From: Gemmatimonadota bacterium
GTDB lineage: Bacteria; Gemmatimonadota; Gemmatimonadetes; Longimicrobiales; Gaopeijiaceae
Length of the DNA: 64,000 bases
Direction of reading: 5' to 3'
Assembly: GCA_026706635.1 (NCBI GenBank)
Contig: JAPOYJ010000011.1
Span: 1 to 64,000 of the forward strand
The translations under genes were made by a program, and so were the position numbers. Positions 8,286-40,153 of the stretch are shown here, in pieces; position 1 is the first letter of the stretch, and each line of letters starts with the position of its first letter. The notes under the pieces were generated by a model that saw nothing but the letters and a program-made list of their open reading frames with translations, was not told the origin of the DNA and did no database searches.

Positions 8286-8470
8286 TAGCAAGACCGCTTC
8301 GAATGCTCGTCCATAATGTAAACTATACTTTACAATATGTACTCCGCACTTTGCAATTCCCCTGCCCTTCGCCTTCGCTCTTCGTCGCGCCTTGCCGGTG
8401 AGGCGGTCCACGGACCGCCCGCGCTCCGCCACTCCCGGGTGCTCGCAAAGAGACTACCCACGAACCGCCA
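8286..8470 (-). mobile_element. MITE-like repeat, copy M (inverted, doublet-bearing)
   Basis: On the minus strand this reads from a decayed left end (GTTCGTGGGTAGTCTC, then GCGAGCACC) through GGCAAGGCGCGACGAAG, an AT-rich palindrome doublet, TATGGAC and a shortened right end finishing TTGCTA. The left end supplies the last codons and TAG stop of the NAD-GDH gene. It fills the whole gap between the two convergent genes. Confidence 0.6.
8317..8355. repeat. 21-bp-period palindrome doublet 1
   Basis: Unit 1 is TGTAAACTATACTTTACA (a near-perfect 18-bp palindrome), a 3-base spacer follows, and unit 2 is TGTACTCCGCACTTTGCA, a decayed copy. Both sit within MITE copy M between two gene 3' ends, so a promoter role here is unlikely. 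The first unit has a 13-base core identical to one inside the YhaN-like gene. Confidence 0.7.
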
Positions 8471-13532: not shown

Positions 13533-14777
13533 ATGCGTCTCATCCACATCGCCGATGTCCACCTGGACAGCGCCTTCGCGGCCCGTCGGGGCGAGGCGCG
13601 AAGACGGCTTCGGGAGGCTACCCTCGACGCCTTTCGGAGGTGCGTCGAGCTGGCCGTTGCGGAGCGGGTCGACGCGCTGCTGATCGCAGGCGACCTTTTC
13701 GACGGACAGCGGCTCTCCTTCGCGACCGAGCTTCGCCTGCTGGCCGAGATGCGGCGACTCGAAACCGAGGGCATCCAGGTGGTCTACGCGGCCGGAAACC
13801 ACGACCCAGGCTGCGCCGCGGCCGGGCGTGCGCTCGCGTGGCCCAGGAATGTGACCGTCGCCGAGGGGGACGAGCCGGTCGTCGTCGCGGTGGCGGGCCG
13901 GAGCGGCCGCACCGTGGGGCATGTGGCGGCTATCGGCCACGCCGACGCGTCGGTGACCGATGATCTCTCGAGGCGCCTTGCGCCAGTCGCGGGAACCGAC
14001 CTGCCCCAGGCGGCGCTCCTTCACACCCAAGTGCGCTCGTCGGTCGGATCTGCCGGACATCACCCCTACGCGCCCTCCGCCATGGAGAGGCTGCGGGGTG
14101 CCGGCTTCGACTACTGGGCGCTGGGGCATGTCCACCAGAGGGAGGAGCTCTCCGCGGACCCGCCCATTCACTATCCGGGGAGCCTGCAGGGGAGGGGGGG
14201 GAGGGAGACCGGTCCGAGGGGCGCTCTTCTCGTCGACCTGTCTGTGCGCGGCCAGCCGACGGTGGAGTTCAGGGAGCTGTCGCCGATCCGCTGGGAGCCC
14301 CTGGAGTCGCCGGACCTTGCCTCGGCCGGGACCGTCGAGGAGCTGGCGGCGGATCTGGAGAGGGCCTGGAGGCGAGCGCGGGCCGAGGACCGGGGCGGCG
14401 CCGATACCGAGTGGATGGCGGCGATCACTCTCGCTGGGGCCTCGCCCCTCTGGCGCGAGCTGGCCGATCCGGACGAGAGGGAGGCTCTCGCCGACGAGGT
14501 GGCGAGGCGGATCGGAGCGCTTGGCTGCGAGATCGACGCTCGCGGCGTCCACCCCCCGGCCTTCGTCGAAGACCACGCCGGGCGTCAGGATGTGCTGGGC
14601 GGGGCGCTCGAGCTCGCGGGCCGCGTGCGGGTCGGCCAGGAGCGGCTCGGGATTGCCGAAGGAGAGCTGGCTGGCTTCGACCGCAGCCGCGGCGGCACGG
14701 TCGACGAGTACGTCGGCCGTCTCCTGGAGGGGGCCGAAGAGGAGCTGCTGGTTCGCATGCTCGTCAGCGGTCGGTAG
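13533..14777 (+). CDS. YhaO-type DNA repair exonuclease (SbcD/Mre11-like metallophosphoesterase)
   Basis: 414 residues with the calcineurin-like metallophosphoesterase motifs in order: HIADVHLDSAF at the N-terminus, AGDLFDG, AGNHDPG, LLHTQV and YWALGHVHQRE, together supplying the Asp/His/Asn metal ligands for two Mn2+ ions. A C-terminal domain of about 180 residues follows. By family, the protein is the nuclease subunit of an Mre11-Rad50-like complex that processes DNA ends. It lies 6 bases upstream of the matching ATPase gene, so the two form an operon. The sequence across its stop codon, TAGCAGCCCGTGAGG, matches the MITE terminal repeat for 12 bases. Confidence 0.88.
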   Translation: MRLIHIADVHLDSAFAARRGEARRRLREATLDAFRRCVELAVAERVDALLIAGDLFDGQRLSFATELRLLAEMRRLETEGIQVVYAAGNHDPGCAAAGRALAWPRNVTVAEGDEPVVVAVAGRSGRTVGHVAAIGHADASVTDDLSRRLAPVAGTDLPQAALLHTQVRSSVGSAGHHPYAPSAMERLRGAGFDYWALGHVHQREELSADPPIHYPGSLQGRGGRETGPRGALLVDLSVRGQPTVEFRELSPIRWEPLESPDLASAGTVEELAADLERAWRRARAEDRGGADTEWMAAITLAGASPLWRELADPDEREALADEVARRIGALGCEIDARGVHPPAFVEDHAGRQDVLGGALELAGRVRVGQERLGIAEGELAGFDRSRGGTVDEYVGRLLEGAEEELLVRMLVSGR

Positions 14778-14783
14778 CAGCCC

Positions 14784-17264
14784 GTGAGGTTCGAGTCGAT
14801 CCGGATCCCTTCCTACGGCTGCCTGGAACGACTGTCCACCGGCGATGCCCCACTACCCCAGGTCGTGGCCGTGCTGGGTCCGAACGAGAGCGGTAAGTCA
14901 ACTCTAGTTGACGTATTGACAACTATACTTTACGGTTTTCGACCCGCGAGCCGAAGACTTCACCCCTATGCGCCGTGGAGCGGAGCCGACGCGGCTGCGT
15001 GGGCGGCGATTCGTATGGGTGACGGGAGAGTGGTCGAGGTCCGCCGCCGGCTTGCCTCCTCGCCCAGGGGTGTGATGAAGGCCGAGGACGATTCGGTGAA
15101 CCTCGCCAACCGGCCCCTTCCCGAGACCGGGCAGGTAGCGCGGGTCGTCTTCCGGCAGGTCTACTCGCTGACCCTTGCCGAGCTGGCGGGCCTCGAGCGC
15201 GAGAGCTGGGATCTGGTGCAGGATCGCCTGGTGAGCGCGATGGCTGCCCCTGACCTGAGGTCGGCACGGGTGGTGGCGGGCGAGCTGGAGGGTGAGGCCG
15301 CCCGTCTATGGCGGCCGGACCGGCGCGGCCGACCCCGGGCGCGGAAGGTGCAGGAGAGGATCCGCAGGCTGGGCGGGGAGCACCGCGGGGCCGTCGAGCG
15401 CGACCGCGAACTGCGCCAGAAGGCGGCTGCCAGAGGGCAGGCAGAGGATGATCTGGAGCGGCTGCGCGGCGAGCTGGCCGAGCTTCGGGAGCGGAGGGGA
15501 GAGGTGGAGCGTCTGGTCCAGATGGCGCCCGTGCGCGGCCGCCTGGTCCGTATCCGGGGGCTGGAGGAGCGGGCAGGCGCAGCGAACGAGCTGGAGGGGC
15601 TCCCCGCCGACCCCACGGCGAGACGAGCGGAGCTTAGCGAGGCTGCCGAGGCCGCGGCCGAGCGGATGGAGTCGCTCAGGGGAGTCGCCGGCGTGGTGGG
15701 ACGCGAGGAGGACAGCCGGCGCCTGCGCGAGGTGGCTGCGCGTGTGCTCGCGGCACCTCTCTCCGAGGTCGACCGGGCGGCCTTCGCGAAGGTGAAGCTC
15801 GACGAGCTGGGCGAAGCGGTGCGGCTCTTCCAGTCGCGGCGCTCCGAGCGAAAAATCGCCCAGGAGGGGCTGCGCGACGCCGAGCGCTTCCGTCTGGCGG
15901 GAGCGGCGCCGAGTGGTGGGTGGCGCCTGGCGCTCTGGCTCTCCTGCTTCGCGCTCGGTGGCGCGGCGGCCTGGGTGGCCCGCTATGCTCCCGATACGCT
16001 GATTCCCCTCCCGGGGATCGAGGCGAGCCCCGAGGCTGTGCTCTGGATAGGCTTCGGGCTGGGGCTGCTGGGATCCGTCTTCCTCTTCCTCTGGCTCGAT
16101 GCCGGACGGCAGCGCCGGGGACAGAGGAGGCGGCTCTCGGCCACGAGGCGGGATTGGCGGAGCGAGATCCAGAGGCTGCAGCACGGGGAGCACATCGCCC
16201 GGCAGCGCGTCGTGGCGAGCCTTGGCGGTCTTCCCATCCAGGAGGAGCGCGTCCGGGTACCCGACTACGAGCTCCACGCGACTCTGGAGCGCCTCGTCGA
16301 GCTCGTGGGCGAACGGGAGGGGAGGGACGATGCGGCGCGTGGCCAGCTCGAGAGGATCGAGAGCGAGCTGCGAGAGCTGGACGCCGAGCGCAACGACTCC
16401 ATCTCGGCGCTGCAGGAGCTGGAGAGTAGGCTGAAGGCGATCGGAGGCGGTGACCTCGAGCGCGGCGAGGTCGAGGCCCGGGAGCGCCTGAGCGCCCTGG
16501 CTAGGGCCCGCGAGCTAGGGCGGGAGGTGGGGCGCGAGCACCCCGACCTGGCCGAGGTGGAGGCGCGGATTCAGGGGGCTGAGAAGGCTGGCGAGGATTG
16601 GGGGTCGCTCGATGCCTCCCTGGAGGATACGGATCGGCGAATTGCCGGGCTCGTGGAGCGGGTGGAGGAGGCACGGGCGGCGATCGCCACCCTGGAGGCA
16701 GAGATCGACCATCTGCAGCGAGGCGAGACTGCCGATCGGATCCAGGGACGGATTGAGGCGGCGAGGCGGGAGCTCGACGAGGTGCGGGAGCGGCGGGACC
16801 GCGCCATCTTGCTGGCGCGAGTGCTTGCCGAGGCGGAGCGGCGCTTCCGGGAGGCCCATCAGCCGGACCTGCTCCCGAGAGCCGCCGACTACCTGCGGCA
16901 CATCACCCTTGGCCGCTACGACCGCATCGAGCTCGGCGAGGGAGCGGAGGATTCGCTCCGGCTCCTGGGACCGGTCGCTTCGGCACCCCGCCCGGTCGAC
17001 TCGCTCTCGCAGGGCACGCGGGAGCAGGTGTACATGGCGCTCCGCCTCGCGGTGATCGATCACCTCGACGCCGACGGCGAGCGACTCCCGGTCTTCATGG
17101 ACGAGACCCTCGTCAACTGGGACGCCTGGCGCCGCGACCGCGCCCTCGAGCTTCTGGAGCGGGTGGCCGAGCGCCGTCAGCTCTTCGTCTTCACCTGCCA
17201 CCCCGCGATGGCGGCCGATATCGAGGATCGGGGCGGTCGGGTCGTCGCGCTCGAGCGGCGCTGA
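14784..17264 (+). CDS. YhaN-type AAA ATPase (Rad50/SbcC-like) with internal membrane segments
   Basis: 826 residues. Walker A GPNESGKS is at residues 32-39; the C-terminus has the ABC-type signature region DSLSQGTREQVYMALRLA and Walker B LPVFMDETLVNWD. Between them are two coiled-coil arms and, near residues 375-440, two hydrophobic segments (LALWLSCFALGGAAAWV and VLWIGFGLGLLGSVFLFLW), a trait of YhaN that sets it apart from soluble SbcC. It should pair with the upstream nuclease and tether it near the membrane. GTG start, 6 bases after the nuclease stop. The codons from residue 37 to 54 are unusually AT-rich and contain a palindrome doublet (see next entry). Confidence 0.85.
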   Translation: MRFESIRIPSYGCLERLSTGDAPLPQVVAVLGPNESGKSTLVDVLTTILYGFRPASRRLHPYAPWSGADAAAWAAIRMGDGRVVEVRRRLASSPRGVMKAEDDSVNLANRPLPETGQVARVVFRQVYSLTLAELAGLERESWDLVQDRLVSAMAAPDLRSARVVAGELEGEAARLWRPDRRGRPRARKVQERIRRLGGEHRGAVERDRELRQKAAARGQAEDDLERLRGELAELRERRGEVERLVQMAPVRGRLVRIRGLEERAGAANELEGLPADPTARRAELSEAAEAAAERMESLRGVAGVVGREEDSRRLREVAARVLAAPLSEVDRAAFAKVKLDELGEAVRLFQSRRSERKIAQEGLRDAERFRLAGAAPSGGWRLALWLSCFALGGAAAWVARYAPDTLIPLPGIEASPEAVLWIGFGLGLLGSVFLFLWLDAGRQRRGQRRRLSATRRDWRSEIQRLQHGEHIARQRVVASLGGLPIQEERVRVPDYELHATLERLVELVGEREGRDDAARGQLERIESELRELDAERNDSISALQELESRLKAIGGGDLERGEVEARERLSALARARELGREVGREHPDLAEVEARIQGAEKAGEDWGSLDASLEDTDRRIAGLVERVEEARAAIATLEAEIDHLQRGETADRIQGRIEAARRELDEVRERRDRAILLARVLAEAERRFREAHQPDLLPRAADYLRHITLGRYDRIELGEGAEDSLRLLGPVASAPRPVDSLSQGTREQVYMALRLAVIDHLDADGERLPVFMDETLVNWDAWRRDRALELLERVAERRQLFVFTCHPAMAADIEDRGGRVVALERR
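14896..14934. repeat. 21-bp-period palindrome doublet 2, inside the Walker A coding region
   Basis: AGTCAACTCTAGTTGACG (14896-14913), spacer TAT, then TGACAACTATACTTTACG (14917-14934). The architecture 18+3+18 equals that of the extragenic copies; unit 2 shares AACTATACTTTAC with doublet 1. The stretch encodes KSTLVDVLTTILYG using AT-rich codons (TCA, CTA, GTA, TTG, ACA, ATA, CTT) in a gene otherwise rich in G/C-ending codons. Confidence 0.65.
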
Positions 17265-28347: not shown

Positions 28348-28514
28348 CGGCGGATCGCCGGGGAGCAACGCAGGGCGAAGCTGCGGGCACGGCCATTGTA
28401 AACTCTAGATTACAAAAGGTAAGGCATACGTTACTATGGACAGGCGAAGCCAAGCGGTCCAGCGGGGATGCAGCGCTGCTCGAATGCCGTGGGAGGTTTG
28501 TCCACAGGCTGCTT
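28345..28514 (+). mobile_element. MITE-like repeat, copy D (doublet-bearing)
   Basis: The left end is decayed (TAGCGGCGGATCGCCGG) and overlaps the stop of the glutamine synthetase gene. GAGCAACGCAGGGCGAAG is followed by a palindrome doublet, TATGGACAGGCGAAGCC, GCGGTCCAGCGGGGATGCAG and a right end TTTGTCCACAGGCTGCTT. It occupies the whole leader of the next gene, so that gene's promoter must lie in or before the element. Confidence 0.75.
28397..28435. repeat. 21-bp-period palindrome doublet 3
   Basis: TGTAAACTCTAGATTACA (28397-28414), spacer AAA, GGTAAGGCATACGTTACT (28418-28435). It is carried by MITE copy D and ends 81 bases before the start codon of the downstream lipoprotein gene, a position where an operator could act. 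Confidence 0.75.
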
Positions 28515-35115: not shown

Positions 35116-35343
35116 CAGCAGTCCGTGGAAAATCTCGCGCGAGCATCTGCGGGCCGCATTGGCTGGTAGCAGCGGTACCGGCCCGAGAAGCAACGCAGAG
35201 CTAATCCATCGGGTACAGGCATTGTACACCATGGATTACATATTGTAAGGCATACATTACAGCACGGACAACGGACAGGCGGGAGGAGCGGTCAGCGGAG
35301 ATGCAGCGCCACTCCTGCCGTGGGCGCTCTGTCCACGGGCTGC
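35116..35343 (+). mobile_element. MITE-like repeat, copy F (doublet-bearing, full length)
   Basis: Left end CAGCAGTCCGTGGAAAATC, CTCGCGCGAG, hairpin GGCTGGTAGC/AGC/GGTACCGGCC, GAAGCAACGCAGAGC, the palindrome doublet, GGACAGGCGG, GGAGATGCAGCGCC, right end CTGTCCACGGGCTGCC. 228 bp. It fills the gap between the histidine kinase (start 10 bases to the left, read leftwards) and the end of the lipoprotein gene to the right. Confidence 0.8.
35223..35261. repeat. 21-bp-period palindrome doublet 4
   Basis: TGTACACCATGGATTACA (35223-35240), spacer TAT, TGTAAGGCATACATTACA (35244-35261). Carried by MITE copy F, 117 bases upstream of the histidine kinase start codon, so it could serve as an operator for the kinase/regulator operon. 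Confidence 0.75.
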
Positions 35344-38110: not shown

Positions 38111-38610
38111 GAATCGCCTACCCTAGCTGGGATGGAGCGGAGGATGGATGGTCTGATCGTCGGTCACGCTGCAGCGGGGAGCGAAGAGAGCGGGAAGAGC
38201 GGTGGTCAATTTCCATACTAGTGGTGGTAAGGTAATAGAGACTAGTCGTAGTAGAGGGTGTGGAAAGAGTGGATAGGTGGCCCAGGACCCGGTCCCAGAG
38301 GCTGAAGCGATGGGGTGTGTGGACCGTTGGGGGAAGTGTGGAAGAGTGGGGGAAGGCAGCTTGATTTCCGGCCGGAAGGTGGGCGACGGAGCGTCAGATG
38401 TGGAAAATCACATGGATCGGGAGGGTTTTCCACATGGTTTTCCACAGGTGCTTGTGGTTCCCGGGCATAGGCGGGAGTCCACGGGTACGGAAACCGTAAA
38501 GCATGATTTACATATTGTAACATATACTTTACACTGTGGACAGGCGAGCGAAGCGGGCCACCGGGGATGCAGTGCCGCTTGCTGCCGCTGGGGGAGTTGT
38601 CTACAGGCCG
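38111..38610. other. oriC: probable replication origin (oriC) between dnaA and dnaN
   Basis: DnaA-box-like 9-mers cluster here: TTTTCCACA at 38426-38434 and 38438-38446, its complement TGTGGAAAA at 38399-38407, and weaker TGTGGAAAG (38259-38267) and TGTGGAAGA (38337-38345). Next to the 38259 box the bases TAG-TCG-TAG-TAG-AGG (38243-38257) resemble the DnaA-trio element that guides strand opening. The flank 38190-38255 and the palindrome doublet at 38495-38533 are the AT-rich parts. Location between dnaA and dnaN is typical of bacterial origins. A MITE copy has landed in the dnaA-proximal part. Confidence 0.65.
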
Positions 38611-38613
38611 CTA
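38480..38613 (+). mobile_element. MITE-like repeat, copy G (doublet-bearing, left part lost)
   Basis: From ACGGGTACGGAAACC it runs through the palindrome doublet, GTGGACAGGCGAGCGAAGCG, CCGGGGATGCAGTGCC and ends TTGTCTACAGGCCGCTA. The last three bases are, on the minus strand, the TAG stop codon of dnaA. The hairpin and left end are missing. Confidence 0.65.
38495..38533. repeat. 21-bp-period palindrome doublet 5, in the putative oriC
   Basis: CGTAAAGCATGATTTACA (38495-38512), spacer TAT, TGTAACATATACTTTACA (38516-38533). Found in MITE copy G, about 50 bases from the nearest DnaA-box-like sequence and 385 bases upstream of the dnaN start codon. Confidence 0.75.
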
Positions 38614-39990
38614 GCCGCTGCACCGGGTCAGCTCCCTGCGCAGGTCGTCAACCTTGGCGCAGAAGGCCTCGTCGGAGCAGAGCTTCTCCTCTACCCGCCG
38701 GATCGAGTGGATGACGGTGGAGTGATCCCTCCCGCCGAATGCCCTTCCAATCTGCTTGAGGGGCGTGTCGAGGAGCTCGCGGGCCAGAAACATCGCCACC
38801 TGGCGGGGCTCGGCGATGGCGCGCGTACGCCGGGGCGACGAGAGCGCCTCTCCGGGGACCTTCCAGCGCTCGCCCACGCGGTCCCGGATGGCATCGACGC
38901 TGAGCGGATCTGTATCGCGGTCGGCGGAGAGGGCGGCCAGGGCGAAGCGGGCCGTCTCCAGGGTGAGCTCCTGTTCGGTGAGCGATGTGAAGGCCAGCAC
39001 CTTGATCAGAGCACCCTCGAGCTCCCGCACCGACGAGGTGCACCGGTCGGCGATCAGCTCAACGATCTCGCCCGAGATCGCGATGCGCTCCTCATCCGCC
39101 TTCCTGCGCAGGATCGCGACCCGGGTCTCATAGTCCGGGGGGCTCACATCCGCAACGAGTCCCCACTCGAAGCGAGAGACGAGCCTGGCCTCCATCTCCA
39201 CGAGATCCTTCGGGCGGCAGTCGCTAGTGAGGACGATCTGGGCACCGGTGTTGTATAGGACGTTGAAGGTGTGGAAGAACTCCTCCTGGCTCCGCTCCTT
39301 CCCGCCCAGGAATTGGATGTCGTCGACGAGGAGGAGATCGAAGGAGCGGTAGCGGGTGCGGAAGGCCTCGGTGGTGTTGCCGTAGATGGCGGCGACCATC
39401 TCGTTGACGAACTCCACGGAGGGTGTGTAGCAGACCCTGGCGCCGGTGCGGCGGGCGAGGAGCGCGTGGCCTATCGCCTGCAGGAGGTGCGTCTTGCCTA
39501 GCCCGGTGTCGCCGTACAGGAAGAGCGGGTTGTAGCGGCGGGCGGGCCCCTCGGCGACGGCGAAGCTGGCGGCGCTGGCGAGGCGGTTGCTGGCACCGAC
39601 TATGAAGCGGGCAAAGGTGTAGCGCGAGTTCAGCGGGGGTGGCGGCGCCTCGGGGGGCGAGGGTCCCTCTCGGGCGTCCGCCACCGCCCCCTGGGCGACG
39701 CGCGAGAGGTTGACCTCCGGGAGCTCCCGCTCGGGGGCGGAGCCGTCGAAGGAGATGGAGACCCTGGCTGGGCCGCCCGCGACATTTCGCACGATCTGGT
39801 CGAGAAGCGGCCCGTAGTTGTCCTCCAGATAGTGGGCCCGGAACTCGGAGTCGGCCACAACTCTCAGCACCCCATCCGACCACGAAGTGGCTCTGGCGTC
39901 AACGAACCAGGCGCGAACGCTCCGCTCGGGAAGGGTGGCCCTGACCTGCTCGACTACGCGGTTCCAGAGGTCGGTGGGGTGCGGTCTCAT
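38611..39990 (-). CDS. dnaA: chromosomal replication initiator DnaA
   Basis: 459 residues from MRPHPTDLW, the family's usual N-terminus; a longer open frame upstream passes through a MITE and is rejected. Domain I ends near residue 90; domain III has Walker A LYGDTGLGKTHLLQAIGHAL and Walker B LLLVDDIQFLGGK; domain IV ends with the DNA-binding signature GGRDHSTVIHSIRRVEEKL. It binds DnaA boxes and melts oriC. The probable origin lies directly after it. A palindrome doublet lies 125 bases upstream of the start codon. The stop codon TAG coincides with a MITE end. Confidence 0.96.
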   Translation of the reverse strand: MRPHPTDLWNRVVEQVRATLPERSVRAWFVDARATSWSDGVLRVVADSEFRAHYLEDNYGPLLDQIVRNVAGGPARVSISFDGSAPERELPEVNLSRVAQGAVADAREGPSPPEAPPPPLNSRYTFARFIVGASNRLASAASFAVAEGPARRYNPLFLYGDTGLGKTHLLQAIGHALLARRTGARVCYTPSVEFVNEMVAAIYGNTTEAFRTRYRSFDLLLVDDIQFLGGKERSQEEFFHTFNVLYNTGAQIVLTSDCRPKDLVEMEARLVSRFEWGLVADVSPPDYETRVAILRRKADEERIAISGEIVELIADRCTSSVRELEGALIKVLAFTSLTEQELTLETARFALAALSADRDTDPLSVDAIRDRVGERWKVPGEALSSPRRTRAIAEPRQVAMFLARELLDTPLKQIGRAFGGRDHSTVIHSIRRVEEKLCSDEAFCAKVDDLRRELTRCSG

Positions 39991-40114: not shown

Positions 40115-40153
40115 TGTAAACTACACATTACATTATGTAAACCACCGATTACA
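40115..40153. repeat. 21-bp-period palindrome doublet 6, upstream of dnaA
   Basis: TGTAAACTACACATTACA (40115-40132), spacer TTA, TGTAAACCACCGATTACA (40136-40153). Unlike doublets 1 and 3-5 it has no recognisable MITE sequence directly around it; the nearest element is 100 bases away and inverted. Its place 125 bases before the dnaA start makes an operator for dnaA plausible. Confidence 0.75.

Follow-up and report, generated by a model that had tools for sequence, protein, structure and literature searches.

The ARG boxes of ArgR consist of two 18-bp palindromes placed 3 bp apart, with TGAAT / TGCAT as the half-site. C.Kpn2I, a protein of the HTH_3 family, has been shown experimentally to form a roadblock to transcription elongation by binding within the gene that encodes it (PMC6237814). 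Many intragenic sigma-54 sites are conserved, and these sites are promoters (PMC4591121). The functional weight of intragenic regulator sites in bacteria is debated, and in the case of PhoB in E. coli most of them were judged to be noise, being for the most part inert and unconserved (PMC10294691).

The present analysis concerns a pair of palindromes (hereafter referred to as the doublet) inside a yhaN gene. The window, which is the whole 64,000-nucleotide stretch of DNA analysed, corresponds to contig C81 in a Gemmatimonadota genome of 2.81 Mb (G000), and its GC is mostly 65-70%. Four intragenic doublets in unrelated genes are kept throughout the genus although codon usage is strongly biased towards GC, and a relative that lacks the candidate regulator carries none of the four, which constitutes a natural deletion experiment and makes the question of function directly testable. 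The results propose a binding site for a regulator of the HTH_3-PBP_like type and suggest that a predicted operator can shape protein-coding sequence even beside a Walker A motif.

The doublet in yhaN and its orthologues

The 18+3+18 layout described in the sequence-only reading proved to be exact: positions 14896-14934 read AGTCAACTCTAGTTGACG TAT TGACAACTATACTTTACG and follow the pattern GTMA-N8-TKAC, N5, GTMA-N8-TKAC, with the palindrome centres 21 bp, or two helical turns, apart (Table 1). The doublet spans codons 38-51 of yhaN, at the Walker A motif GPNESGKST, and codons 39-49 are TCA ACT CTA GTT GAC GTA TTG ACA ACT ATA CTT. A 13-base core, AACTATACTTTAC, has just two exact occurrences in the entire genome, one at 8321-8333 and the other at 14921-14933. 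The likeness to the copy at 8317 noticed earlier holds for this common core but not for the layout, the 8317 copy being a single good palindrome next to a degenerate one and no full doublet.

Table 1. Coordinates of the yhaN doublet, of its host and neighbouring genes and of related palindromes in the window
Feature	Position	Strand	Remarks
Unit 1, candidate intragenic operator	14896..14913		GTCAACTCTAGTTGAC (14897-14912) plus one flanking base per side; palindrome, 0 mismatches to GTMA-N8-TKAC
Spacer	14914..14916		3 bp; 5 bp between the 16-bp cores; centre-to-centre 21 bp
Unit 2, candidate intragenic operator	14917..14934		GACAACTATACTTTAC (14918-14933) plus one flanking base per side; one mismatch to GTMA-N8-TKAC
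yhaN, YhaN-type AAA_27 / SMC-like ATPase, holds the site	14784..17264	+	PF13514, E 1e-12; orthologues
yhaO, metallophosphoesterase (SbcD-like partner), immediately upstream of yhaN	13533..14777	+	PF00149, E 3e-14
Related single palindrome unit	8317..8334		GTAAACTATACTTTAC; between convergent genes; degenerate second unit 8339-8354
Intergenic doublet	28397..28435		0 mismatches (pattern start 28398)
Intergenic doublet	35223..35261		1 mismatch (pattern start 35224)
Intergenic doublet	38495..38533		0 mismatches (pattern start 38496); ~79 bp past the 3' end of dnaA (38611-39990)
Intergenic doublet	40115..40153		0 mismatches (pattern start 40116); divergent intergenic region

The named relatives carrying yhaN are metagenome-assembled genomes of Gemmatimonadota / Longimicrobiales, many of them presumably sponge-associated, as judged from the isolate names; genomes G001-G022 belong to the same genus as G000. 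The doublet is retained in 11 other yhaN orthologues with 44-55% protein identity, ten of the short type (G001, G003, G004, G007, G012, G014, G016, G018, G019 and G021) and one of the long type (G017), and in all of these, as in G000, it is found at exactly nucleotide 114 of the gene with 0-1 mismatches. The ten short-type orthologues read like AAG TCA ACT TTN TTT GAC TTN TTG TCA ACT TTA CTT TAC, and the motif is written GTMA-N8-TKAC because of the GTCA variant of the arm in the orthologue doublets. The GACA variant seen in unit 2 of the G000 gene is present in G021 and G007 as well.

In the eleven short-type genes, where amino acids agree, codon identity was 0.90-0.92 in the site window, as compared with a gene mean of 0.60 and a best value elsewhere of 0.81. 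Third-position AT was 0.68 at the site and 0.64-0.69 in the site window as against 0.145 for the gene. Both measures peak at the site, which bears out the earlier remark that codons here are AT-rich in a gene that otherwise favours GC. When the G000 gene was subjected to 300 synonymous-codon shuffles, the best doublet anywhere had at least 3 mismatches (observed, 1); with 300 shuffles for each of twelve yhaN genes, 0 mismatches were never obtained and 1 mismatch in 6 of 3600.

The other long-type genes, from a sister clade, encode nearly the same peptide, GPNESGKSTFFSFLT, with the codons TCC ACC TTC TTC TCC TTC CTG, have 7-9 mismatches to the doublet and show no palindrome, so that these codons are not dictated by the protein sequence. 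In the genus, the internal site is missing from most yhaN genes of the long type, though their genomes hold many doublets. In the orthologue comparison proposed with the first reading, an AT-rich site was kept by the short-type genes and G017, and ordinary GC-rich codons were used by the remaining long-type genes. The proposal that codons are chosen so as to preserve a selected DNA site is supported, since eleven other orthologues keep the doublet and synonymous conservation is highest there; these comparisons of sequences establish the yhaN site as a real one, selected at the DNA level. In three genomes with a long-type, site-less yhaN, a doublet was observed 30-40 bp after the end of the gene.

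Distribution of the doublet in the genome and the genus

The unit GTAAACTATACTTTAC has nine matches in the window at up to 3 mismatches (0.00 expected from 100 shuffles), and four further full doublets are listed in Table 1. The pattern GTAA-N8-TTAC, 5 bp, GTAA-N8-TTAC has 269 copies at up to 3 mismatches in the G000 genome and a reversed-pattern control yielded 4. In nine stretches of G000 (217 kb, 85% coding), 36 of the 38 doublets were scored intergenic, a count that rests on home-made gene calls in which starts can be missed and that includes the truly intragenic yhaN copy, the start of yhaN having been called too far downstream. Genomes carry about 20-250 sites, spread along the chromosome, their number differing more than tenfold between species. 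Since convergent regions of G000 contain doublets as commonly as its other intergenic DNA does, and those of G021 contain them frequently, the sites fit classical promoter repression poorly, and a promoter-only model was rejected as a full account.

An exact-doublet scan of 395 genomes of the phylum found the doublet to be numerous in 22 of the 23 genomes of this genus, G009 being the sole one without it, and present in 1-3 copies in 17 others. Three further intragenic cases were traced from the doublets scored intragenic in G001 and G017. In smc (codons 349-361), the doublet is present in 22 of 22 regulator-bearing genomes with 0-2 mismatches, in another reading frame than in yhaN, and the equivalent stretch of G009 has 9 mismatches and a GC of 0.77. 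By our own gene models, the HpcH/HpaI aldolase carries it at codons 40-52 (19/19, 0-2 mismatches; 6 in G009) and the AMP-binding acyl-CoA ligase at codons 143-155 (18/18, 1-4 mismatches; 8 in G009), the peptide itself differing in these two between G009 and the remaining genomes. Third-position AT is 0.66 at the smc site (gene, 0.14) and 0.64 at the aldolase site (gene, 0.13). Sites equivalent to that of yhaN sit inside the smc, aldolase and ligase genes, and the finding goes beyond the earlier claim in that the yhaN site belongs to a set found throughout the genus, for which a likely binder can be named.

In 96 doublets (192 units) from two complete genomes, the half-site is TGTMAWSY and the inner positions vary freely, with no pairing covariation, positions 3, 5, 6, 7 and 8 being near expectation. 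A hairpin, RNA or cruciform element was rejected, inner positions being without compensatory pairing, and this lack of covariation argues that the doublet is a predicted site for two protein dimers (four half-sites).

Other repeated features were also observed. A repeat starting TAGCAGYCCGTGGA has 46 copies in the 217 kb of G000 (25018 and 14775 in the window among them) and frequently falls on the stop codon of the gene itself, with 15 of the 46 copies lying exactly at a called stop; doublets of G000 often lie ~76-80 bp past stops that carry this repeat. In G021, three identical doublets at 249-bp intervals (C1 207280-207814) apparently form a site-bearing tandem repeat, and in G017 (C22) a further intragenic doublet was seen within valS, towards its 3' end.

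The candidate binder

Comparison of the genes beside doublets in six genomes (G000, G001, G004, G016, G017 and G021) led to one regulator, which combines an HTH_3 domain with a PBP_like domain (PF12727). It is present in 22 of the 22 doublet-bearing genomes of the genus and absent from G009, and in all 22 a doublet with 0-2 mismatches is located upstream of the regulator's own gene, 39-111 bp before the start or the match start. In two genomes of the sister genus (G140 and G197), the sole exact doublet is ~95 bp upstream of the regulator orthologue, while in a third (G033), where the regulator is 58% identical, just one clear unit is found upstream. In the distant genomes G279 (exact) and G035 (1 mismatch), the sole doublet found adjoins an operon with a related HTH_3 gene. 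The own-promoter doublet in every regulator-bearing genome of the genus, the joint absence in G009 and the sole exact site in G140 and G197 strongly support the HTH_3-PBP_like regulator as the predicted binder of the doublet.

The HTH_3 domain scores 33-46 bits (Pfam cut-off 23) and the PBP_like domain 146-168 bits in G001, G017 and G140 (cut-off 27). In the predicted structure (mean pLDDT 88.6), the HTH precedes a type-2 PBP fold. Upstream of the regulator, G001, G016 and G017 have a gene for a GPP34 (Golgi phosphoprotein 3-like) protein. In G000 the PBP_like match covers 78 of 193 profile positions with a score of 27.7 bits, which indicates a truncated sensor domain, and the regulator there may no longer be ligand-responsive; this genome has the most doublets of all despite the truncation. 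The G000 regulator (contig C53 3499-4254) has 261 aa and retains just the initial part of the PBP domain, but both the HTH and the doublet upstream of the gene are intact. The papers searched yielded no characterised regulator combining PF12727 with an HTH and no operator described for HTH_3-PBP_like regulators.

Possible functions and comparison with known systems

We consider it probable that the intragenic doublets are operators of an uncharacterised ligand-responsive HTH_3-PBP_like regulator and serve as transcription roadblocks, the roadblock step being inferred. The yhaN doublet would be bound by two dimers, on the same helix face, of a Cro/CI-type (HTH_3) regulator with a C-terminal type-2 periplasmic-binding-protein-like sensor, and the bound tetramer would block RNA polymerase within the gene, by analogy with C.Kpn2I. 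Against this explanation stand the long-type yhaN genes, most of which have no site, the single clear unit in G033, the truncated sensor of G000 and the many sites in convergent regions. The inertness of most intragenic PhoB sites in E. coli also speaks against it, though those sites are not conserved.

A site of chromosome architecture, at which a protein organises or marks the chromosome in the manner of SlmA, Noc or MatP, with local transcription beside the point, is unlikely but is the foremost of the alternatives. The doublets in smc and in the SMC-like ATPase gene would belong to this role, which is kept in consideration because two of the four conserved intragenic sites are in genes for SMC-type ATPases and because the sites, many of them convergent or intragenic, are dispersed over the chromosome. 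However, sites also occur a short way before genes and in the promoter region of the regulator itself, the presence of a ligand sensor points to regulation, the more than tenfold variation in site number between species is unfavourable, and no ori/ter clustering is evident among the listed sites; in the complete genome G021 (ori unmapped), the exact sites listed extend from 244 kb to 4.2 Mb and form no obvious clusters. A more speculative form of the idea, to which a somewhat lower probability is assigned, is a ligand-responsive HTH-PBP chromosome organiser, peculiar to one genus, with tetramer sites scattered through the genome and fixed in smc and the SMC-like ATPase gene, which would tie a metabolite signal to the supply or loading of SMC machines and subordinate the codon usage of core genes to it.

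That a different protein binds the site, the HTH_3-PBP gene being merely one of its targets, appears improbable. Of the targets tested, the regulator alone is lost along with the sites in G009, and its gene alone has an exact site in G140 and G197; in G279 and G035 the single doublet is next to a related HTH_3 gene. An effect of codon bias or mRNA (a translation ramp, a pause at Walker A or mRNA structure) might be suspected from the position of the yhaN and aldolase doublets, both ~115 nt into the open reading frame, but it is very improbable, given that the same 37-bp pattern occurs at smc codon 349 in another frame and in intergenic DNA, that in sister clades GC-rich codons specify the same peptide and that base pairs do not covary.

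Equally slight is the prospect that a decayed dispersed intergenic repeat (REP/MITE-like) landed in yhaN. Many intergenic doublets of G000 do lie in a composite repeat whose flanks are conserved, but sequence common beyond the core is seen just for these copies; the yhaN copy has no repeat flank and occupies the same codon in 12 genomes, and the flanks are unconserved in G001, G017 and G021, which indicates discrete sites in these three species. A transposable, REP or MITE repeat was thus rejected for the yhaN copy and for these species. Chance or protein-sequence constraint alone, for which only the conserved Walker A region speaks, is excluded to near certainty by the synonymous shuffles and the sister-clade codons.

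The proposed intragenic operator of the HTH_3-PBP_like regulator may now be set beside the systems already described. The doublet shares with ArgR boxes the arrangement of paired 18-bp palindromes with a 3-bp spacer, but an ArgR box was rejected in spite of the fitting geometry, the half-site being TGTMAWSY and the linked gene HTH_3, not ArgR. By sequence the HTH of the regulator is nearest to PbsX, CylR2, 434, P22 c2 and C proteins. CylR2 / PbsX, 434 and P22 c2, the closest solved HTH structures, are without a PBP_like domain, and we know of no protein of their type with hundreds of genomic sites; a literature search for the CylR2 operator yielded none usable. In the predicted structure, the C-terminal fold resembles LysR effector domains, ModA and phosphate-binding proteins, from which the DNA-binding domain and the operator differ. 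A restriction-modification controller (C) protein was rejected, the regulator being of 370 aa with a PBP domain and its neighbour being GPP34, not restriction-modification genes. The likeness to C.Kpn2I lies in the HTH_3 family, the two dimers on tandem operators and the site within a coding sequence; C.Kpn2I, however, is small and acts on the restriction-modification gene that is its own, whereas here a larger, PBP-bearing regulator is predicted to have sites, conserved throughout the genus, in at least four unrelated genes, the roadblock being inferred. With the sigma-54 and PhoB cases the present one shares DNA-binding sites inside genes and the use of conservation as a test of function, and it differs from them in that a long, predicted two-dimer operator is kept in spite of strongly GC-biased codon usage.
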